Positions 3,832-18,164 of a stretch of 24,751 nucleotides of DNA are shown piece after piece. Location: the IMG/VR virus record IMGVR_UViG_3300036900_000398, positions 1 through 24,751 of that record. One strand, written 5' to 3'. The position numbers were made by a program, and so were the translations under genes. Source of the stretch: a virus. The notes under the pieces are model-generated. The model was not told the origin of the DNA, searched no databases, and saw nothing but the letters and a program-made list of their open reading frames with translations. Numbering within the stretch: position 1 is the first letter of the stretch; each line of letters begins with the position of its first letter.

Positions 3832-5805
3832 TCAGTAGCGGATGCTCTGCTGACCCGGCGGCAGTCCACCCGGTCCTATGCCGCCACCACCTGCGGCCGC
3901 GGCGCCGGCCATGACCTGGGGCCCTGGCGGTGGCTGAACGCCCGCACCGTTCGGGGCCGCTGCCAGAGCACCCATGTCCGGCACAGCCGGCGACCCCTCG
4001 AACACGCCCGGAGCGGGCGCGCCTTGCGGCACCGCCTGTGTCTGATCGGCCAGCACCCCATTCGCTGCCAGATCGGATGCCTGCTGCGCGAGCTGCAGGA
4101 TGTCGCCGCGGCCAGCGAACATGAACACCTGACTGTCGAGCCACTTCTGGTACTGCGGCGTCTGACGGATGCGGTCGCGCTCTTTCGAGCGGCGGATCTC
4201 GTCCGGGTTATCCCCCAGGTACTCGATCGCCTCGTCGGCGCCCCACGTGCCCGCAGCCAGGCGCTCGTGCGCGTAGCGCGCGCGCATCATGTCGTCGGTC
4301 GGGAGCTGCTGCTGCACCTCCCAGCGGATGCGCACGGGCCGATCGAAGTCCTTCGGGCCCAGGCCGATGTAGCCACCTGATCCGATCTCGGCTTCACTAT
4401 CGCCCGCCGAGTATCCGACGTAGATCTTCTCTTTGACCTTGTAGCGCGCCAGGTCCCAGAGTTTCTCGGTCTGGCCCTTGAGCAGCGTCTCGAGGCCGCG
4501 GCTCACCGGCGCGACGCGCGTCCGCGAGTAGCTCAGCACCTGGCTGATGGCAAAGCCGGCGCCCTCCATGCCGCCCAGCGTGGTCACCTTCGGGCTCTCA
4601 AGCTGAGCGATCGCGCCATCGATCAGACTCATGTGCTTTTCGAGCGTCGCCGCGTCGGGGTATTCGATGCGCGCAAGCTGGCGACCGGGCCCGTTATTGA
4701 TGATCTCGCCGGGGAGGGGCCCAGGATCGCGCTCACGCGGCTTGCCGTCGTTGCCGATGACGGGCGCTGCGCTCGAGTCGCCGAAGCTCTGGAGTGGACT
4801 CAGCAGGTCACGCGCAACGTATTGGGCGTGCATTGCGCGAAGGTACTGGCGGTACTTCACCAGCCAGAGCTTGGTCTGGCTGATGCCCCAGCCCACCTTG
4901 CGGTTGCGCCAGTAGCTCATCCACAAGCCTGGGCCGAAGTCATACGGCACGCCGAACGGGTAGCCGTGCTCGAACTGCTTGACGATCGCGCTGGTCGGGT
5001 TGCCGTTGTAGTTGGTGCCGGCCACGGTCCACGTGCACCACTTCTCGTCCCAGTGCTCGTGCATCGTCACGCTGTACGGCAGCACGCGCGGGTTGTTCTC
5101 AGCCTGGGGACGGCCGAGCGCCTCGGGCACGATGTTGCCGACCGCGTCCAGGTCGAGGCGGTAGCGGCGCAGCGTCGAGCGCAGCGGGCGCTCGGTGATC
5201 TCGAGCACCTCGCACAGACGCCCGCCGCTGAACACGGGATAGACGCAGCGCGGGTCGACATACATCCACGAAAACGGCGGCCCTGCGGCCTTCTTCGCCT
5301 CCTCGGTCGCGCGGTCGTAGCTGGTGTATGTCTCGGTCTCGTCGCCTGGTCCAGGCTCCTCGAGGCCGTAGCGCAGGTCCCACGCGTCGCGCGTGAACAG
5401 CAGCTTGCTCCAGGCGCCGCCGTCGTTCAGCGCGGCGTCGGTGCACTGTGCCATGGTGTCCTGGCCTGGCTCGCGCGTGCCGCACTCCCAGAGCGTCTCC
5501 TCGGTCCAGTGCTCGCGCAGGCTGGCGTTGGTCTGCGCCGTGTCACCCTCGCCCGCTTTGAGCGTGAGCTTCGGGCGCTCCATGGTCATAATCGCCGTCT
5601 GCTGGAAGGCTTCCTCGGTGACGTCCGGGTCACGCGGGTCGACGTTGACCAGCGTGTAGCGCTGGTCCGCGCCGGCCATTGCCGGCACGCGCATCTCGCG
5701 CTGCTTGCGCGCGTCGTCGAGCTGGCGATCGTCGTCGAGGTACAGGTCGCCGAGCTCACTGGCGAGCGCGCGCAGATACTCCGCGCTCGGCGGCTTGTCA
5801 GCCAT
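3832..5805 (-). CDS. Phage portal protein
   Basis: This 657-residue protein forms the dodecameric ring through which DNA enters and leaves the capsid in tailed phages. The assignment rests on overall architecture. There is an acidic helical N-terminus, then a mixed core with W-rich segments (SWMYVDPRCVYPVF near 180; FGPGLWMSYWRNRKVGWG near 290). A long helical part follows (MSLIDGAIAQLESPK; VLSYSRTRVAPVSRGLETLL), then a disordered Gly/Pro/Ala C-terminus after about residue 585. The VDPR...YP motif and the stem-like helices are typical of portals in this size range. It lies downstream of the terminase genes and directly before virion genes. The start has GAGGT about 8 bases upstream and overlaps the end of the preceding 58-residue gene. 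No single residue proves the family, but size, order and composition all agree. Confidence 0.85.
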   Translation of the reverse strand: MADKPPSAEYLRALASELGDLYLDDDRQLDDARKQREMRVPAMAGADQRYTLVNVDPRDPDVTEEAFQQTAIMTMERPKLTLKAGEGDTAQTNASLREHWTEETLWECGTREPGQDTMAQCTDAALNDGGAWSKLLFTRDAWDLRYGLEEPGPGDETETYTSYDRATEEAKKAAGPPFSWMYVDPRCVYPVFSGGRLCEVLEITERPLRSTLRRYRLDLDAVGNIVPEALGRPQAENNPRVLPYSVTMHEHWDEKWCTWTVAGTNYNGNPTSAIVKQFEHGYPFGVPYDFGPGLWMSYWRNRKVGWGISQTKLWLVKYRQYLRAMHAQYVARDLLSPLQSFGDSSAAPVIGNDGKPRERDPGPLPGEIINNGPGRQLARIEYPDAATLEKHMSLIDGAIAQLESPKVTTLGGMEGAGFAISQVLSYSRTRVAPVSRGLETLLKGQTEKLWDLARYKVKEKIYVGYSAGDSEAEIGSGGYIGLGPKDFDRPVRIRWEVQQQLPTDDMMRARYAHERLAAGTWGADEAIEYLGDNPDEIRRSKERDRIRQTPQYQKWLDSQVFMFAGRGDILQLAQQASDLAANGVLADQTQAVPQGAPAPGVFEGSPAVPDMGALAAAPNGAGVQPPPGPQVMAGAAAAGGGGIGPGGLPPGQQSIRY

Positions 5806-5974
5806 TGGCGACGACCTCGCGCGCCGCGGCGATCCACGCGGTCTTGAGCGCGTCGGTCATGTCGTCCCATTGCGGCAGGACCTCGCCGCTGATCAGCGAC
5901 ACCCAGCCCGTATTCGTGCAGTACGCCTCGTAGCAGATCCGCCCCAGGCGCTCGTCCTCAGCTTGCATCGTCAT
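5798..5974 (-). CDS. Small conserved-type phage protein (58 aa), function unknown
   Basis: The ORF runs from ATG 5974 (an ATG at 5968 is also possible) to TGA 5798. It overlaps the preceding primase-like gene by ATGA and the portal start by 8 bases, which strongly supports translation. The product has an N-terminal ERLGRICYEAYC helix, a central GWVSLISGEVLPQWDDM segment and a C-terminal helix with AWIAAAREV. The pattern of a W after a loop, then a short acidic stretch and an AW.AAA helix recurs in small phage proteins of unknown role. I can give no function beyond its fixed place directly before the portal gene. Confidence 0.72.
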   Translation of the reverse strand: MTMQAEDERLGRICYEAYCTNTGWVSLISGEVLPQWDDMTDALKTAWIAAAREVVANG

Positions 5975-6657
5975 CCGCGTACATACCTCGCCCAGACGTC
6001 GTACAGGCCGCGCTGATTCGATTGAATCGTTGCCGGCGCCTCGGTCAGCCTGTGGCCGGTGACGGAAAAGAAGCGACGAGTTGTCATCTCCACCCAGTCA
6101 CGGCGTCGACGACCCTCGGGCAGCGTGCCGCGCACGAAGATGCGATACCCGTCACCGCTCGGCGAGTGCTCGGTGTACGAATCAACCGTGCGCACGATGC
6201 GGTCGGCGTCGAGGCGGTGTTCGCTAATGTGGTCCAGGTCGATGCCGACCAGGCCAAAGCGATAGTTGAGCGCGAAGCTGACACCGTCGTACGGGCGCTG
6301 CCCCTGCTTCGGCACCAGGCGGTCCTGGTACGCGCGCCAGCAGTCCTCGAAGTCCGACCAGGTTGCGATGTCCGCCGGATCCGCCACCTCGCCAGTGAAC
6401 GGGTCATACGGTGGTTTGGACCATCGGTTGTCCGCATACTCGTACGCCCAGTTGGCCCAGGCGTGGTGGCGGCGCAGCTCGAGCGGAATGCTGAGCGGGT
6501 CGACACGGAGCGGCCCATTCGGCGGCGGACCTTTCTGCGGCGCGCGCGCCTTCGGGGTCTGGTACTGCTCAAGCCAGCGCGGCGTGATCACGGCTCGCGC
6601 GTGAGTGTAGCGCGCACAGGTCATGGACTCCATTACCTGTTTAGGAATGGACTCCAT
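5971..6657 (-). CDS. Stand-alone AEP/PrimPol-like protein (NrS-1-type catalytic domain)
   Basis: This is an archaeo-eukaryotic-type primase/polymerase domain without a helicase. With the start at ATG 6657 it is 228 residues. The WANWAYEY...WSKPPYDPFTGE stretch (about 68-90) matches the N-terminal strand region of NrS-1-like prim-pols. Motif I is GLVGIDLDH (Asp140, Asp142), motif II is HSPSGDGYRIF (about 164-174), and motif III is VEMTTRRFFSVTGH (about 189-202). All three metal- and nucleotide-binding motifs are therefore present. No downstream HBD or helicase is attached. In-frame ATGs at 6633 and 6624 are alternative starts, the last with GGAG only 3 bases upstream. It overlaps the next gene by ATGA. 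The location between terminase and portal is odd for a replication gene, and the genome also carries a separate primase-helicase at 10495-12561. Confidence 0.78.
   Translation of the reverse strand: MESIPKQVMESMTCARYTHARAVITPRWLEQYQTPKARAPQKGPPPNGPLRVDPLSIPLELRRHHAWANWAYEYADNRWSKPPYDPFTGEVADPADIATWSDFEDCWRAYQDRLVPKQGQRPYDGVSFALNYRFGLVGIDLDHISEHRLDADRIVRTVDSYTEHSPSGDGYRIFVRGTLPEGRRRRDWVEMTTRRFFSVTGHRLTEAPATIQSNQRGLYDVWARYVRG
6623..6657. repeat. Pair of identical 11-bp palindromes at the 5' end of the PrimPol-like gene
   Basis: ATGGACTCCAT occurs at 6623-6633 and 6647-6657. Each copy is a perfect dyad (ATGGA-n-TCCAT), and the following 6 bases match at 5 positions. Centres are 24 bp apart, a little over two helical turns. 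The palindromes coincide with the candidate start codons of the PrimPol-like gene, so they could be operator half-sites, RNA structure at the ribosome binding region, or simply a duplicated start region (the protein repeats QVMES). Confidence 0.5.
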
Positions 6658-6680
6658 GACCTGGGGTAGGCGGTGCAGTG

Positions 6681-6923
6681 CTACGTTGCCGGCTGCACCG
6701 CAGCCGGCGCTGCCAGGCGAGGCCGCGGCCGCGGAATCGGGACCGGCGAGCTGCCGAGCTTGGTGTTCGTGTTGCGCGTCACCTGACTCAGCCACCGACT
6801 AAGCGTCGCGATATCGGGCGGTGCATCTGTACGCACCACAATGCTGAGGCTCGTGTACCAACCATCACTGCCCTCGCGGCTCTGAAACCCTACGAGCTGG
6901 CCTGATCCTGTCGAGTCAATCAT
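6681..6923 (-). CDS. Hypothetical small protein (80 aa)
   Basis: It starts at ATG 6923 with GAGAGGA 7 bases upstream and shares TGATG with the end of the preceding gene. It ends at TAG 6681, 23 bases before the PrimPol-like start. The N-terminal part reads as alternating strands (GQLVGFQSRE, WYTSLSIVVRTD), followed by a helix (ATLSRWLSQV) and a Pro/Arg/Ala-rich tail (PVPIPRPRPRLAAPAAV). I recognise no family. A GTG further upstream (6944) would add seven residues, but the Shine-Dalgarno favours 6923. Confidence 0.68.
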   Translation of the reverse strand: MIDSTGSGQLVGFQSREGSDGWYTSLSIVVRTDAPPDIATLSRWLSQVTRNTNTKLGSSPVPIPRPRPRLAAPAAVQPAT

Positions 6924-8408: not shown

Positions 8409-9668
8409 TCAGCGCGAGAACGAGTAACTCGAGCGCCGAGGCGCGACGTCCACCGCGGCGCCGAGATTCGCCAGGCATAACGCGATGACGGTGTCATCGT
8501 GCATGCCGGACGGCGCCGCGTAGCGGATCATGCCCGTCGCCGTCTTCGTGCTTTCGAACGCGAGGAGCTCTGCCTGCTGCACCTGGTCGTCGAGCAGTGT
8601 GAGCTCGCCGCGCTCGATGTTCAGCGCGAGCCTTTCGATCGCCGCGGCTTTGCTGGCGTTGTCGTTATGCCAGCCGTACACCGGCAGCGCCGCGCGCGGC
8701 TTGCCGATCAAGCGCGCGTAGCCGCGCTGCAGGCGCTCGACCAGCGGGCCACCCATGCTGTTGCGCTCGGCGACGATCTGCGTCGGGCGGTACACGCCCA
8801 CCCACTCGTGCAGGCGCTCCGTTTGTACCTCGAAGTCCAGGTCGGTGAAGCGATCCAGCGCGACCTGCTCGAGCGTCGTCGCGTCAACGACGCTGATGAC
8901 AGTGAAGTCATTGCTGCGCCCCCAATCGCAGCCGAAGACGTACGTGTGGCCGCGCTCCGGCGGCCGCGGTTTCAGCCTGGACACCGCGCGCACGCCGCGG
9001 AACACGCCCGCGCCCTCAAGGCTCAGGAACTGCGCGAGGTACTCCTGGGCAAAGACGCGCTCCGGCAGCTCGTGGCGCGCCGCTTCGATCTCTGCCGCTG
9101 CGATGTAGGGATTCACCGACGTCGGCATCTGCCACGAGCGCCAGTCCGTCTCGAGCGGATCCTGGCCGCGCGTGAACAGCGTGTAGAAGTCGTTCAGTCC
9201 ACGCGGTGTGGACATGAACCAGCCGTCACCGCGGAAATCGGTCAGCGTCGGGCGGATCGCCTGACCCCACACGTCAGCCAAGTGCGGGATCATCGCGGCC
9301 TCATCGACGACCGCGAGCGCGTAGCGTCGACCGCGCGCAGGATCGCCCGTGTCCGTACTCCAGCACTCCAGTACGCCGCCGCCATACAGCTCGAGGCGGT
9401 GCTCCTGCTCACTCTTATCGACGATGACCTCGGCGACGACCGCCTTCAGCTCGCGCCAGAACTCCTCGAGCAGCTTGTACGTCGGCGCGAAGTACGCCGC
9501 CGGCCGCTGGGTAAGCGCGCACTTCGTGAGCAGGCGCTGCGCAAGCTTGCTCTTGCCGGCGCGGCGCCCGAGCGCCACCGCATTGAAGCGCGCGGCCTCG
9601 GCAATGATCTGCGCCTGGGCCGGATGTGGGGCGGCGAGCCTAACTGTGCGCTCGACCGTTGAGCTCAT
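8409..9668 (-). CDS. terL: Terminase large subunit (ATPase and nuclease)
   Basis: This is the packaging motor that pumps DNA through the portal and cuts it. The 419-residue length is typical. The Walker A is the terminase-style GRRAGKS (34-40) with the Arg/Lys finger. Walker B is YALAVVDEA (about 116-124, Asp122 Glu123), and the coupling motif is STP at 153-155. The RNase H-like nuclease acidic residues are in VFGCDWG (Asp248), IVAERNSMGG (Glu301) and GMHDD (Asp391/392). The ATG at 9668 lies inside the end of the small-terminase-like gene (29-base overlap), so translation is probably coupled. All catalytic motifs are intact and the call is secure. Confidence 0.96.
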   Translation of the reverse strand: MSSTVERTVRLAAPHPAQAQIIAEAARFNAVALGRRAGKSKLAQRLLTKCALTQRPAAYFAPTYKLLEEFWRELKAVVAEVIVDKSEQEHRLELYGGGVLECWSTDTGDPARGRRYALAVVDEAAMIPHLADVWGQAIRPTLTDFRGDGWFMSTPRGLNDFYTLFTRGQDPLETDWRSWQMPTSVNPYIAAAEIEAARHELPERVFAQEYLAQFLSLEGAGVFRGVRAVSRLKPRPPERGHTYVFGCDWGRSNDFTVISVVDATTLEQVALDRFTDLDFEVQTERLHEWVGVYRPTQIVAERNSMGGPLVERLQRGYARLIGKPRAALPVYGWHNDNASKAAAIERLALNIERGELTLLDDQVQQAELLAFESTKTATGMIRYAAPSGMHDDTVIALCLANLGAAVDVAPRRSSYSFSR

Positions 9669-10008
9669 ACGCCTGTTCGATGACGATCGGCTGCGGCTCG
9701 TCGATCACACGGATGACGACCTCGTGCTCACCCTTGACCTCCACCGTCGCCTTGAAGCCGGCCAACTCAAGCACGTACTTGCTGGCATTCAGGCGCACGG
9801 AGTCCTGGTCGGCGCTTTCGATCATCTGCGCCAACGCGTTGATGGCCGGGTGGACCAGCGCGCGCAGGCGCTCCTCCGCCTTCGCCAGGTTCTGCGGTGC
9901 CTTGCCGCCGTGCATGTGGCACACGAGCTGGCCGCGCATGGGACGGTGCTGGCAGCGGTCGCCGTCGCGTGTGAGCGCCTTGCAGAGCATGGGGTTGACG
10001 TTGACCAT
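9640..10008 (-). CDS. Probable terminase small subunit with N-terminal zinc knuckle
   Basis: This 122-residue protein starts at ATG 10008 with GAGGT 5-6 bases upstream and overlaps TerL. Residues 9-34 form a C-x9-C-x10-C-x2-H motif (Cys9, Cys19, Cys30, His33) ending in MHGGKAP, a small zinc module common in phage small proteins. The rest is helical (ALVHPAINALAQMIES; NASKYVLELAGFKAT) and then strand-rich (VEVKGEHEVVIRVID), matching the helical oligomerisation part of many small terminases. The role in recognising pac or cos DNA is inferred from position directly before terL. A nearly identical zinc motif recurs in the 59-residue protein at 21903-22082. Confidence 0.72.
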   Translation of the reverse strand: MVNVNPMLCKALTRDGDRCQHRPMRGQLVCHMHGGKAPQNLAKAEERLRALVHPAINALAQMIESADQDSVRLNASKYVLELAGFKATVEVKGEHEVVIRVIDEPQPIVIEQAYELNGRAHS

Positions 10009-10017
10009 GGGGTTACC

Positions 10018-10245
10018 TCAGCGCCGCCCGCTCGACTTCTTCGTTTCCTTGCGCGGCACGATCTCTGGCTCGTGGTCGTAACAGAGCTCCAGGCCACGTC
10101 CGCAGCCGCCGCAATACTGCCCCATCAGGAACCGGAGCTGCAGTCCTCTCACATGGTCGTCGCACCGCGGGCACACACCACACACCAGCTTTTCTCCAGG
10201 CTTCGGCGGGTACCGCGGGTCGAGCACCGCGCGGCGCGCGCTCAC
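10018..10245 (-). CDS. Small six-cysteine zinc-binding protein (75 aa)
   Basis: A GTG start at 10245 overlaps the TGA of the previous gene (GTGA), and the stop is 9 bases before the small-terminase-like start. Six cysteines form CGVCPRC (22, 25, 28) and YCGGCGRGLELC (45, 48, 55), typical of a zinc ribbon. The C-terminus is basic (PRKETKKSSGRR). Extending this frame upstream to a TTG at 10383 only reads through the neighbouring gene in the wrong frame, so the shorter form is preferred. Function is unknown; a nucleic-acid-binding or accessory packaging role is possible. Confidence 0.65.
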   Translation of the reverse strand: MSARRAVLDPRYPPKPGEKLVCGVCPRCDDHVRGLQLRFLMGQYCGGCGRGLELCYDHEPEIVPRKETKKSSGRR

Positions 10246-10418
10246 TGCGCGAACTCCCGCTGGATCACATACGGCGACGACCTGAGCAGCTTTCTCACCG
10301 CGCCTTGCTCCTTCGCATGGTGCGACACACAGCAATACCGACGCTTTGGATAGTTGGCACTGCGCGGGATCAGCCGCCCGCAAAACAGGCAGTACCGGCC
10401 ACGTTTCAGCAGCCTCAC
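10242..10418 (-). CDS. Very small zinc-finger protein (58 aa)
   Basis: GTG 10418 to TGA 10242 encodes 58 residues with a Y-C-L-F-C-G start (Cys10, Cys13) and a YCCVSHH motif (Cys29/30, His33) around a basic turn, a treble-clef-like pattern, followed by a basic C-terminal helix. It overlaps the next gene by GTGA. Only a weak GGAT lies upstream of the GTG, but the long hairpin at 10427-10471 lies just in front of it and may control its translation. It is short and starts with GTG, so it is easily missed. Residue pattern and overlap make it credible. Confidence 0.6.
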   Translation of the reverse strand: MRLLKRGRYCLFCGRLIPRSANYPKRRYCCVSHHAKEQGAVRKLLRSSPYVIQREFAQ

Positions 10419-10426
10419 GCGGCTAT

Positions 10427-10471
10427 CCGTATTTCTATATTCCTATATTCCATAGGAATACAGAAATACGG
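10427..10471 (-). promoter_or_regulatory. 20-bp near-perfect AT-rich hairpin between the primase-helicase gene and small zinc genes
   Basis: The left arm is 10427-10446, the loop 10447-10451 and the right arm 10452-10471. 19 of 20 positions pair. The only exception, 10437/10461, is A.C on the plus strand but a U.G wobble in RNA made from the minus strand, the direction of the flanking genes. It is much richer in A/T than its surroundings. There is no T-run downstream in the leftward direction, so it is not a classic intrinsic terminator. It may block or process the late operon message, protect a 3' end, or act as a DNA cruciform or binding site. Confidence 0.75.
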
Positions 10472-10494
10472 AAACTCCATCGAGTTTTGGGCTC

Positions 10495-12561
10495 TCACGA
10501 GCCCAACGTCCGGCGGTGGTATTGGAACGGATCGCGGGGCTTCCCAGCGCCTCGAACCTGGATCTCGCCGAGCTCCGCGAGCTCCTTGACGGCACGCCAG
10601 CAGAGGTTACGCTCGAGCCCCGCGGACTCGCGGATCTTGTCCGTCACCGGCCAGTAATCGTCGGCAAATTTCTCGAGCGTCGTGAGCACGCGCGCCTTCG
10701 CATCATCAAGCTTCAACACCGTCACCAGCTCGCCGAGGCCGACCGTGCCGTGTTCCTCATCCATGGGCACTGCTGTCTCCGCCAGGTCGGTGCCATAGCG
10801 CTGCACGCTGTTGATGGTGCGCTGGTTGTCCTTCAGTCGCCGCATCAGCAGCAGCGTGTCCACCGCGCCGAAGATCGCCGTGCTTCCGAGCACGTCGTCG
10901 CCGCCCTCGCGCACCATCTTGCCCAGGTGGTGCGTCAGGGCGATATGGCAGCCCGTGGTGCGCGCCATCTCGATGATCGGCTCGAGCTCGCGCGTCAGCT
11001 CGGCGTAGTCGGAGCTGTCCTTAACGCGAACAAGCTTGAAGATCGGATCGACCACTACCAGCACCGGCTGGTACATCGCGATCGCCACCGCCAGCGCCTG
11101 CAAGCCTTCCCTCGAGCTCGCCGGCGCCGCGCCGACGTGCAGGTGGAGCGATTCATCCGTGCCGCCCATCATGCGGAAGTGGTTGATCACCTCCGCGCGT
11201 TTTTCCTCCAGCGCCAGGTACAACACCGTGCCCTGATGGCACTGCCGCCCCAGGAACACGCCGCCGCGGGCCACCGCCATCGACAGGTTGCGGACCATCA
11301 CCGACTTCCCAACCTTCGGCTTGGCTCCGAATATAGAAACTCCACCGCTCGGCAGCAGGCCCTCCGCCAGATACGCTGTAAGTTCGAGCGGCTCGGACAA
11401 AACCATCTCGAGCGCGGAGAATTGGAAGCCTTTCTGACTTCCAGTATTCTGCGTATTTCCCGTATTCGGGAACACGCTGGGGACGATGAAAATCGCGCTG
11501 AGAAAGTCCGCGAGCTCCGGCCACCGCTTGCCGATGGTGGGCAGTCCCTCCACTGGCTGGTTGCCCAGGATCTTCGCCGCGCTACCCTCGCACAGGCGGT
11601 CGATCTCCTCCGACCAGCGACGCTGCTTGTCGCCGATGAACTCCAGGTCGCCCGACGCGAGCGCAACTTCTTTGAGCATCGCCGCGGCCGGCTCCGCGCC
11701 GATCTGACGGGTCAGGAAGCCTGACAGGGGCAGCAGGTAGTCCGTGTGTCGACTGACGCCCAGGTCCGTCGGCCAGGACGCCGCCATGGCCGCGACGACC
11801 GCCGCGTTGTGCACGACGTTGCTGCGCGCCTCCGACCAGGCCGTCGTCGGAGGCTCCGACAGCTCAGCCGTTTCCCCGAGCTGCCGCGCGCGCGCCCAGA
11901 CGCCGACGAGGTACTCGTTCGGACTCCACTCCTCGTCGGGCGCCGTCGGGATTGCTGCCCGCGGATGCTCGGCGAGCTCCAGGATGGCGGGCATGTCCTT
12001 GCCCAGCACCTCGGCGAGCTCGAGCCGCACCTTGTAGTGGTTGCCTTTTGCGTTCAGCGTGTTGGGCAACCGCCACAACCGCAATTTGTCGTAGATGCTC
12101 TTGTCGAACAGGATCTTGCCCATGAGCTCGACCGCGGCGCGGCGCTCGTACACGTGCAACTCGGTTGATGGCTCGAAGCCACCGAAGAGCACATGGGGGA
12201 TCTCGAGATGGAAGCCCTTCGACCCTGAAAAGTAAAAACGCAACGCGTCGAGCGGGACGTCCTCCATCGCCAGCTTGTGGACGAACTGACGCACCCACTC
12301 GAGCGCGTTGGCAGGGTCGTTGCGATCATCGAAATCGAAGGGGAGCGACGCGTCCCAGACCTCCCCCTCGTAGCCGGCAACGCTCTGATGCTCAGCGACC
12401 CACTCCGCCAGCGCGATCGGACCGCGGCGGTGGGTGATGTACCGCTCGGCGCCCTGGTCGTCGAAGTTGACCTCGCGCAGACGCTGGACGTGGTTGCGGC
12501 GGTTCACGCCGCCGAAGGCCGTATCGACGTACACGTACGTCGCCGCGACGTTGTCAAGCAT
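10495..12561 (-). CDS. Primase-helicase fusion: AEP small-primase-like domain plus RepA/DnaB-like ATPase
   Basis: This 688-residue protein would prime and unwind DNA for phage replication. The N-terminal AEP domain has LPFDFDD (Asp76, Asp78), the FYFSGSKGFHLEI motif (Ser112 to His118) and a third motif in LWRLPNTLNAKGNHYKV (about 162-178), as in eukaryotic-type small primases. A helical linker (about 210-360) follows. The ATPase has Walker A GAKPKVGKS (412-420), Walker B PVLVVVDP (499-506) and the ALTHHLGK motif (541-548) of RepA/AAA_25 helicases. The C-terminus looks like a winged helix. The start ATG 12561 overlaps the SSB-like gene by 8 bases. Both catalytic centres look intact. This is the core of the replication module. 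Confidence 0.9.
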   Translation of the reverse strand: MLDNVAATYVYVDTAFGGVNRRNHVQRLREVNFDDQGAERYITHRRGPIALAEWVAEHQSVAGYEGEVWDASLPFDFDDRNDPANALEWVRQFVHKLAMEDVPLDALRFYFSGSKGFHLEIPHVLFGGFEPSTELHVYERRAAVELMGKILFDKSIYDKLRLWRLPNTLNAKGNHYKVRLELAEVLGKDMPAILELAEHPRAAIPTAPDEEWSPNEYLVGVWARARQLGETAELSEPPTTAWSEARSNVVHNAAVVAAMAASWPTDLGVSRHTDYLLPLSGFLTRQIGAEPAAAMLKEVALASGDLEFIGDKQRRWSEEIDRLCEGSAAKILGNQPVEGLPTIGKRWPELADFLSAIFIVPSVFPNTGNTQNTGSQKGFQFSALEMVLSEPLELTAYLAEGLLPSGGVSIFGAKPKVGKSVMVRNLSMAVARGGVFLGRQCHQGTVLYLALEEKRAEVINHFRMMGGTDESLHLHVGAAPASSREGLQALAVAIAMYQPVLVVVDPIFKLVRVKDSSDYAELTRELEPIIEMARTTGCHIALTHHLGKMVREGGDDVLGSTAIFGAVDTLLLMRRLKDNQRTINSVQRYGTDLAETAVPMDEEHGTVGLGELVTVLKLDDAKARVLTTLEKFADDYWPVTDKIRESAGLERNLCWRAVKELAELGEIQVRGAGKPRDPFQYHRRTLGS

Positions 12562-12940
12562 CGGCGAGTTGCTCCCTCAGGGACTTTTTGGGCGCCGGTC
12601 CTGCTGCCACCTTCGACGTGCGCCCGAGCGCCGCGTGCACGCCGGCCTGGGAGTGATTGGTTTCGTCGGGATTCAGTGGCAATACGTCGCTCGCCTCAAC
12701 CAGGTACGCCGTCCGCACACCGCCGGTGCCTTCCGCCCAGGTCTTGACCTCGAGCAGCCCGATGACGCTCAGGTGCTTGCCGACGGCACACCAGCGCGCG
12801 AGCTGCGCCTGGTGCTGGCCGGCGTAGCGCACAACCATGGCAGGTTGTGCGTGCCGGCTGTCCACGACCTTGCCGCGGATCTGGAGCAGCTCGTTGCCGT
12901 CGACGTCGAAGCGCGCGTCGGGCGCATGCGTCACGGTCAT
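12554..12940 (-). CDS. Single-stranded-DNA-binding-like protein (OB fold, shortened)
   Basis: It starts at ATG 12940 (ATGA overlap) and encodes 128 residues. ELLQIRGKVVDSRH, then MVVRYAGQ, GKHLSVIGLLEVKTW and VRTAYLVEASDVLPL reproduce the strand order of bacterial SSB. The segment that usually holds the WxDVVAWGKLAE signature is shortened to LARWCAVGK. The C-terminus (KKSLREQLADA) lacks the acidic DDDIPF-type tip that recruits partners. It directly precedes the primase-helicase gene and probably coats template DNA. The family call rests on pattern only. A TTG further upstream would add 13 residues, but the coupled ATG is better. Confidence 0.65.
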   Translation of the reverse strand: MTVTHAPDARFDVDGNELLQIRGKVVDSRHAQPAMVVRYAGQHQAQLARWCAVGKHLSVIGLLEVKTWAEGTGGVRTAYLVEASDVLPLNPDETNHSQAGVHAALGRTSKVAAGPAPKKSLREQLADA

Positions 12941-16226: not shown

Positions 16227-16439
16227 GTGGACAAGGACGAGCGCTCGCCGCGGGCAGCCCACGAGGCAGACCTTCGCAGGCAGGCGCGCGCCTTGGCGCC
16301 GGCGTACGACTACATTCGCGCGCTGATCGCACAGTGGGACGTCGAGGACCGCGGGCGCGAGTGTCGCTGCGACCCGCCTGGCTCTGGCGAGGAGTTCTGC
16401 ACCAGGCACTGCCTACGCCGCGAAGATCAGGCGTCCTGA
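16227..16439 (+). CDS. Possible small Cys-rich protein (70 aa)
   Basis: GTG 16227 opens a 70-residue frame with a basic N-terminal helix, AYDYIRALIAQWDVED, and a C-terminal Cys cluster (ECRCDPP, then FCTRHC) that could bind zinc. The amino acid order looks protein-like rather than random. No Shine-Dalgarno is visible, and it overlaps the 3' end of the opposite-strand recombinase gene by 27 bases. Its stop lies one base before the att-like dyad. A longer in-frame start at 16167 exists but crosses the terminator hairpin and the inverted repeat. Moderately supported only. Confidence 0.42.
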   Translation: MDKDERSPRAAHEADLRRQARALAPAYDYIRALIAQWDVEDRGRECRCDPPGSGEEFCTRHCLRREDQAS

Positions 16440-18164
16440 CGGTAGTAATTGCACCGCGAACTTCAAGAACGACGCGGCAGAATTACTACCATCGTCCTGG
16501 CCAAGCACTAGCGCACCGGACCAGGCGATCGGCACCTCGCGGCGAGGCTTCATCTGCGCCAGGATCGGCTGGCCGTCGCCACCGACGCGCGCGTGGATGT
16601 CCACCAGCTCGATCAACTGTCGTCGTTGCGCTGGCGTGGCGCGCACGCCGACCTTGGCCACCATCGCCGCCAGGCGCTCGATCTCCGCGGCCTCATCGGC
16701 GCTGATGCCGACACCGGGTGCCGCCTGAACCTGCTTCAGGTCGCGGCGCAGTCGGACCAGGAGCTGCTTGGTCTCGTCGCGGGCGGCGACATGGATGGGC
16801 AGCTCTTCATCAGCCTCGTCGGTGCCTTCGGCCTCCAGCTCCGTCACACGCTTGACGTGGATGGCCAGCAGGCGCTCCTGCTGCTTGATGCTGGCAGCGA
16901 TCGCCTGCTCGCGATCCTCGCGGCCCTGGTCGTCGAAACGGCGGCATTCGCGCGCGTCCTGGAGGTCAGCCCGCAGGCGCTCAGGGTCGCTCATGGCCGC
17001 GATCAGCTCTGACCAGGCGCGCTCCTCGAGGACCTCCGCGCGAATCGTCGGCAGCTCGCACTGCGGCACATCCTCGAAGCGGGCGCGCTGCTTGACGCCC
17101 CAGTGGAACGGGCAGAGGTAGTACCGATCGCCCTGGCGGTTGGCGCGCTTGGAGTGCAGGTACACGTCGCTGCCCTGGCGCGCTGAGCACGGCTCGCACA
17201 CCAGGCGCCCGCGGAACAGGAACTCGTCGTCGTCGGTGCCCTTGCGTCCTGGGCCGCGGCGGCTCTTGCGCTCGGCCAGCGCGGCCTGCACGCGCTCGTA
17301 CAGGTCCTCAGTGACAATCAGCGGGATCTGTCGCGTCTGCTTATGGAAGGTGTACACACCGTGGTACAGGTGCGAGGTGAGGATGCGGTACACCGAGTCG
17401 TCGCCCCAGCGGACACCGGCGTTGGCGGTGTACTTCGCCTTGCGGAAGGTGCGCGCCGCGCCAGGCGGCGGGATGCGCTCGTCCTGGAGCCACTGTAATA
17501 GGTCGCCGACGGGTGAGCTCAACGCGCGTCGATAGAGCTCACGAACGATCTTCGCCTCGGGCTCATACACCTCGTAGTCACACACGCGGTGCTTCGGCGT
17601 GGTGTCGCGCAGGTAGCGATAGCCGTACGGCGCGGTGCCCTGGCCAACCACCTTGCCGGCGGCTGCCTTGTCGCGGCGCGAGTTCATGGTGCGCCAGCGG
17701 ATCTTGGCCTTCTCCAGCTCGTTGTCCATGAAGGCTTCGACTTCCATCTTCTGACGCCAGTGCTCGGCGTATGGGTTGCCGTCGGTCGCCTCAGGCACCT
17801 CAGGGATGTCGGCAAACACCACGCGGACGCCGTACTCGCGCACCTGGCGCGTCATCCACAGACCCTTGGCCGTGTCGCGCGTCCAGCGATCAGAGCCCGG
17901 AATCAGCAGCGTCTTGAACCGCCCCGAGCGAGCCATTTCCACGCAGCGGTCCAGGTCGGGCAGGCTCCAGAGCGCACCGCTGGCGTTGTCTTCGACGCCG
18001 TCGCGGAACCGGAGATCATCAGGGACGACGACGTGGAGGTCGCGCGCCATCTCATCGACGCTGCGCTCCTGGCGTCTGAATCCGTACCCGTAGAGCGCCT
18101 GGACCTGGCGACTGACGCGCTCGTACGACGCCGCGGTCTCGGCAGGGTCAGTTGCCCAGCTCAC
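16413..18164 (-). CDS. Large serine recombinase (phage integrase)
   Basis: This 583-residue protein would integrate or excise the phage by cutting at attP/attB. The N-terminal resolvase domain has YERVS with catalytic Ser18 and Arg16, and SDRWTRD (91-97) with the conserved arginines. The recombinase domain (about 175-300) contains APYGYRYLRD and VYRILTSHLYHGVY. A zinc ribbon follows (Cys323, Cys326, Cys351, His354), then a coiled coil (about 400-500) and a C-terminal DNA-binding tail. The C-terminus ends LIFAA. GTG 18164 has GGAG 8 bases upstream and overlaps the XRE stop by GTGA. The last codons overlap a dyad that looks like an attachment site. The family is certain; use of this site is inferred. 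Confidence 0.95.
   Translation of the reverse strand: MSWATDPAETAASYERVSRQVQALYGYGFRRQERSVDEMARDLHVVVPDDLRFRDGVEDNASGALWSLPDLDRCVEMARSGRFKTLLIPGSDRWTRDTAKGLWMTRQVREYGVRVVFADIPEVPEATDGNPYAEHWRQKMEVEAFMDNELEKAKIRWRTMNSRRDKAAAGKVVGQGTAPYGYRYLRDTTPKHRVCDYEVYEPEAKIVRELYRRALSSPVGDLLQWLQDERIPPPGAARTFRKAKYTANAGVRWGDDSVYRILTSHLYHGVYTFHKQTRQIPLIVTEDLYERVQAALAERKSRRGPGRKGTDDDEFLFRGRLVCEPCSARQGSDVYLHSKRANRQGDRYYLCPFHWGVKQRARFEDVPQCELPTIRAEVLEERAWSELIAAMSDPERLRADLQDARECRRFDDQGREDREQAIAASIKQQERLLAIHVKRVTELEAEGTDEADEELPIHVAARDETKQLLVRLRRDLKQVQAAPGVGISADEAAEIERLAAMVAKVGVRATPAQRRQLIELVDIHARVGGDGQPILAQMKPRREVPIAWSGALVLGQDDGSNSAASFLKFAVQLLPSGRLIFAA
16441..16490. other. Candidate serine-integrase attachment site (attP-like dyad) inside the recombinase gene 3' end
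   Basis: Two 24-bp half-sites (16441-16464 and the reverse complement of 16467-16490) match at 18 of 24 positions around a central AA at 16465-16466. The outer 10 bp match perfectly (GGTAGTAATT), the inner CCGCG matches, and the three bases next to the centre match. Size, dyad symmetry and a central dinucleotide are what large serine integrases use for attP. Its place at the integrase gene fits. It is more A/T-rich than the surroundings. No second copy was seen in the window. Confidence 0.55.

Follow-up and report, generated by a model that had tools for sequence, protein, structure and literature searches.

A hairpin downstream of a phage primase-helicase gene as the probable core of a replication origin

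Our computational analysis of a 24,751-nucleotide stretch of viral DNA (positions 1 to 24,751 of IMG/VR record IMGVR_UViG_3300036900_000398, hereafter the window) pointed to a hairpin at positions 10426-10472, in the sense of the minus strand, that is probably the core of the phage's replication origin and would be bound by the phage's own primase-helicase. The computation revealed the structure of the element, its fixed place after the helicase gene, its symmetry without conserved sequence, the repeat make-up of its arms and the co-variation of these arms with a winged helix of the helicase. From these features we infer that the protein binds to the hairpin, that the DNA opens there and that replication starts there. 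In the mechanism that we propose, the arms would be inverted pairs of 7-8 bp sites for the winged helix of the primase-helicase encoded immediately upstream, and several copies of the protein would bind them symmetrically. The AT-rich element would then open or extrude, helicase rings would load onto the exposed strands, and the primase domain would start primers.

The hairpin is real and lies far above chance expectation. Its arms (10427-10446 and 10452-10471) form 19 of 20 possible base pairs around a 5-nt loop at the centre of the inverted repeat (10447-10451), and the sole mismatch, A10437 against C10461 on the plus strand, becomes a G.U pair in the leftward RNA. The hairpin, the number of its pairs and the kind of its mismatch had been described in a first-pass annotation of the same DNA, to which our search added an outermost T-A pair, so that 20 of 21 positions are paired over the whole element. 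No inverted repeat of the window is stronger: the element scores 17.75, and 60 dinucleotide shuffles of the full sequence reached 12.75 at most. Folding of 85 nt gave -41.7 kcal/mol for the leftward RNA (z -8.3), -33.9 for the RNA in plus-strand sense (z -7.3) and -23.2 for the DNA of the leftward strand (z -7.9), and in each case 0/200 shuffles equalled the result. The element is also AT-rich in a GC-rich setting, as had been annotated, with a GC content of 32% versus 66% for the window; 47-nt stretches that are equally AT-rich amount to 0.06%.

The arms consist of two 7-8 bp direct repeats opposite two inverted ones, giving four half-sites in all. In gene sense, the left arm carries on the minus strand a first octamer, GTATTTCT (10462-10469), and a second one, GTATTCCT (10454-10461), both delimited from the sequence and from the periodicity of the arm. 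The opposite arm carries on the plus strand the inverted copies of the first octamer (GTATTTCT, 10429-10436) and of the second (ATATTCCT, 10437-10444), as read from the sequence, the latter beginning with the mismatched A. The period of 8 in the left arm was reached by 0/300 shuffles.

The hairpin lies 22 nt past the stop codon of a gene encoding a 688-residue primase-helicase (10495-12561, minus strand), the presumed initiator, which was recognised by PHROG primase and helicase matches and by an AAA_25 match; it thus falls within about 60 bp downstream of the gene, as in an origin of the pRN1 type. On its other side it is flanked by a small Cys-rich reading frame that directly follows it (10246-10418, minus strand, 57 codons, with a GTG start where the counterpart in locus L039 starts with ATG) and by terminase genes, in line with the annotated position between replication and packaging genes. 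No turn of the GC skew was found at 10.4 kb in the window, where the flanking genes run leftward and whose record may be a fragment. The PHROG primase matches cover the region of residues 64-202, while a Pfam scan of the 688-residue protein gave no primase match; the protein contains DxD and SGxKGxH motifs, by which it may be an archaeo-eukaryotic primase. The helicase domain (residues 392-548; 10918-11388, minus strand) was identified by a domain match to AAA_25, which was found in 8/9 family members scanned and which we take to be RecA-like. The last ~75 residues are predicted to form a winged helix, with a pLDDT of about 90 over most of the domain, and this C-terminal domain (residues 611-683; 10513-10731, minus strand), delimited by predicted structure and profiles, presumably reads the hairpin repeats. 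As AlphaFold modelled the whole protein poorly (mean pLDDT 52), only the C-terminal end of that model was used, and this end was then predicted separately. The best structural matches of this domain were Z-alpha, NsrR and other winged helices, and they indicate the fold only, with no family assigned. Elsewhere in the window, a 657-residue frame (3832-5805) had neither a Pfam nor a PHROG match.

In most relatives of the phage the place of the element is kept and its letters are not. The closest relative (L006, contig IMGVR_UViG_3300013306_000009) carries the identical 47 nt, with 294/300 identical positions in the right flank. A 17-base scan of viral contigs yielded 35 stretches, of which only the one in L006 contained both arms, and the other 34, with one exact match each, are probably due to chance. 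A DNA similarity search in phages with positions 9600-12600 gave no match, and scanning genomes with the helicase alignment turned up a single locus (L119), matched in its primase part only. At the position of the hairpin, L121 has a related but rewritten repeat, and L122, L123, L125 and L128 have repeats of quite different letters, in L128 as two copies in tandem; the contig of L127 stops before this position is complete.

A search with the helicase domain provided 41 loci, from which L142, cut inside the helicase, was removed and to which the window was added, resulting in 41 loci in 31 clusters after the merging of near-duplicates. Twenty-nine clusters reach far enough downstream; those of L132 and of L155 (with its near-duplicates L156 and L157) were left out as too short. 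In 21 of these 29 clusters, the window included, the best inverted repeat of the locus fell in the tile at the helicase end, a 400-nt stretch that starts 60 nt short of the end of the helicase domain and extends 340 nt beyond it (2.4 clusters expected, Wilcoxon p 6e-7). For the L155 cluster the shortest member had been taken as representative; as the longer L156 and L157 have no strong repeat there, inclusion of this cluster would give 21/30. Twenty-two of the 29 beat all 20 shuffles, and the mean inverted-repeat score was 11.2 at this tile, 6.5 in the other tiles and 6.1 in the shuffles. The eight clusters in which the element is not the top repeat include L140 and L145, where one other tile scores higher, and L158, L161, L162, L163, L166 and L169, about 31% identical or less, where nothing strong was found. 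In annotated phage and plasmid records, 13 of which were hand-picked from the search matches and not drawn at random, six had their top inverted repeat at -2 to +148 nt relative to where the gene or match ends, and seven did not show the pattern. Within the elements found, the arm sequences differ between most phages while the pairing is kept, so that structure is conserved without sequence. The first-pass annotation had suggested a maintained structure near the replication genes and had proposed a comparison of relatives for compensatory changes; this comparison upheld the suggestion, as pairing persists through changing letters.

The relatives also bear on whether a mobile palindromic repeat or a recombination site was inserted here. 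Such an insertion would fit the length difference of 12 nt directly at the edge of the hairpin, where the next start codon is 7 nt away in the window and 19 nt away in L006. However, no second copy of the hairpin was found in the window or in a 40.7-kb relative, the sequence varies between phages and hence is not that of one inserted family, and arm similarity follows the winged helix, as described below; we therefore regard an insertion as extremely unlikely.

The make-up of the arms is consistent with an array of protein binding sites, as an origin core of the proposed kind would have. A left arm formed as a tandem of two 7-8 bp units (p<=0.04) was seen in nine of 23 elements, eight of them from the ten closest relatives. 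The helicases of L130 and L131 are 95% identical, and in the first repeat of their elements the same unit position differs in all four copies (CTGTC versus CTGTA), a pattern that would be expected where all copies are read by a single protein. Remoter relatives have at the hairpin position arrays of one short word in both orientations, such as 11 x GGAACC in L145 and 9 x CGGTTC in L159. In Streptococcus phage Javan311 (L183, 3670-4030) 15 x GGGACA in both orientations stand directly after repA, and an Azospirillum plasmid has 9 x CGGGAC. By a count of 6-mers, 17 of 42 loci had the helicase-end place as their one best tile, and the window was not among them because its four units are too unlike each other. 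The feature table of Javan311 has no feature over the gap after repA, and CGGGAC arrays were seen after an AAA_25-like ATPase match or gene in both Azospirillum and Xanthobacter plasmids (L180, 3340-3740, and L181, 3478-3878).

The arms change together with the winged helix. Over the ten closest loci, arm similarity and winged-helix identity correlated with r 0.61, and with the helicase held constant the partial r with the winged helix was 0.55 (permutation p 0.004, n=10), versus 0.01 (p 0.47, n=10) for the arms and the rest of the helicase. Over all loci (n=23) the partial r was 0.28 (p 2e-4) for the winged helix and 0.17 (p 0.03) for the helicase. The correlation changes along the protein, from near zero at residues 489-588 to a peak of 0.63 at residues 639-688; the downstream DNA that follows the element gives 0.14-0.23, a weak control given the few 7-mers shared there. 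Winged helix and hairpin are neighbours, and shared descent explains part of the co-variation.

This co-variation is as compatible with an operator as with an origin, and the winged helix in some family members gave profile matches to MarR-, IclR- and GntR-like domains, thus resembling regulators of these types. The winged helix might accordingly bind the repeat to regulate downstream genes or its own gene, the element not being an origin. Against such regulation, the element is placed at the 3′ end of the gene or inside it, no promoter-like site was found within 10000-11000, and arrays of up to 15 copies, as in the relatives, would be unusual for an operator, so that we consider it unlikely.

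Returning to the element as an origin core, two relatives suggest how its specificity might change. L127 (IMG/VR 3300026023_000020) and L128 (3300014745_000129) are 99-100% identical per 100 columns over 2.9 kb, primase included. Identity drops to 84-91% in the final 400 nt of the helicase and to 62-67% in the winged helix, whose protein sequences are 44% identical. Judged from the alignment, this divergence from the helicase end onward appears to be a natural domain swap, with a swap of the hairpin not visible in the cut-off L127. We tentatively raise the possibility, itself doubtful, that winged helix and hairpin form an exchangeable specificity cassette that is swapped as a unit onto an unchanged primase/RecA-like helicase. 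If this were true, near-identical phages would be compatible replicons, the origin would in many phages be translated as the tail of the initiator, followed by a zinc-finger-like peptide, and a RecA-like primase-helicase of hypervariable specificity would act as an initiator that loads itself at a hairpin origin.

The first-pass annotation had read the G.U position as a sign that RNA is what is maintained, and a hairpin in the leftward transcript could serve as a processing site, as an mRNA stabiliser or in translational control of the next gene. The very stable RNA fold, the single mismatch that is G.U in the leftward RNA and the pairing that stays while letters change are all compatible with such a role. 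Over the 23 elements, however, sense-strand G.U is not favoured among the arm mismatches (three G.T, five A.C and six other): in L134, which shares its contig with L121, the sense RNA has A.C, and in L135 there are two C.A mismatches and one G.G. Maintenance as RNA only would bias the leftover mismatches to sense-strand G.U, and as no such bias is seen, the G.U position provides no argument for RNA; the hairpin of L006 is identical to that of the window, hence its G.U is not an independent case. Moreover, the arms are made of direct repeats, which are not needed for RNA pairing, and 11 of the 23 elements are embedded in the helicase reading frame, several of them followed by a CxxC peptide, the other 12 standing after the stop codon. 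This location and the unequal distances to the start codon in the window and L006 also make the annotated option of translational control of the GTG-started gene at 10418 unlikely. No Rfam match was obtained at the element at gathering score, and the lack of a T-run noted earlier agrees with a search within 10000-11000 that found no terminator-like site. Altogether a function as RNA seems quite improbable. The mismatch counts and the elements inside reading frames indicate that the symmetry is most simply that of DNA binding sites, and of the roles listed in the annotation the cruciform or DNA element comes nearest to the origin core favoured here. Among specific candidates, a known structured RNA was rejected on the Rfam result, and an intrinsic terminator on the stem of 32% GC and the absent T-run.

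Several characterized replicons offer parallels. In SaPI and SCCmec, the C-terminal domain of a helicase is described as reading short repeats just downstream of its own gene, the putative SCCmec origin being located downstream of cch2 and the SaPI iteron origin downstream of rep (PMC7581432, citing Ubeda 2007). The phage resembles them in its four half-sites, and its remoter relatives in their repeat arrays, directly downstream of a presumed initiator helicase gene, and the co-variation suggests that the C-terminal domain may set specificity here as well; the SaPI and SCC helicases are described as other families (PMC7581432). The same source reports that in SCCmec inverted repeats are dispensable for binding and direct repeats are needed (PMC7581432). 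By analogy, it may be the words of the repeats, and not the hairpin form, that matter in the phage. The ssiA and ssiB hairpins of RSF1010, as described in PMC4234260, are recognised by the primase RepB′; they resemble our element in being a hairpin start site for a plasmid-encoded primase, and differ in that three separate proteins are involved and that an iteron origin has to be unwound before the hairpins come into play.

In the Sulfolobus plasmid pRN1, the gene for a primase-helicase-winged-helix protein has downstream of it a tested stem-loop of 100 bp, which is described as the only cis element required besides the replication operon; the fold but not the sequence of this stem-loop is conserved in the pRN1 family, and the authors extend the idea to Bordetella phage BIP-1 (PMC4234260, PMC3869888). 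Going by these descriptions, the two systems have in common a stem-loop directly downstream of a primase-helicase gene with a C-terminal winged helix and a structure that is kept while the sequence is not. The pRN1 stem-loop is larger (~100 bp, with a 21-nt stem and a 58-nt loop, 54 bp after the stop codon) than the element here (47 bp with a 5-nt loop), and only the latter has octamer-repeat arms and is in many relatives translated as part of the initiator. The pRN1 helicase is of SF3, in contrast to the AAA_25, presumably RecA-like, helicase of the phage, which did not classify as SF3; for this reason the phage is not a member of the pRN1 family, and by analogy it most likely works alike, its initiator gene being followed by a compact origin.

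Phage lambda has its origin inside gene O (PMC6022878). Elements within the initiator coding sequence, as in the 11 cases above, follow that described arrangement, unlike the element of the window, which lies after the stop codon. Gene O of lambda is not known to encode a primase-helicase. The present element differs from the cited precedents, as far as they are described, in its RecA-like initiator, its two-by-two octamer hairpin, its frequent in-frame position and its co-change with the winged helix, and a literature search of titles and abstract beginnings found no treatment of the origins of phages with AAA_25 primase-helicases.

If the proposed origin is right, a sequence would suffice to find the origins of such phages, by inspection of the 3′ end of the primase-helicase gene, and every phage would present a matched protein-DNA recognition pair. 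The rewritten hairpins and winged helices would then constitute a ready series from which the rules of DNA reading by such domains could be learned, and which would serve for testing whether origin specificity allows related phages or plasmids to coexist in one cell. The window contains further inverted repeats: a second one at 6617-6663 (18 nt, 94% complementary) within a primase-like frame (5971-6795), and another at 16438-16493 (21 nt, 81% complementary), where a gene for a large serine recombinase (16413-18164) has its 3′ end.
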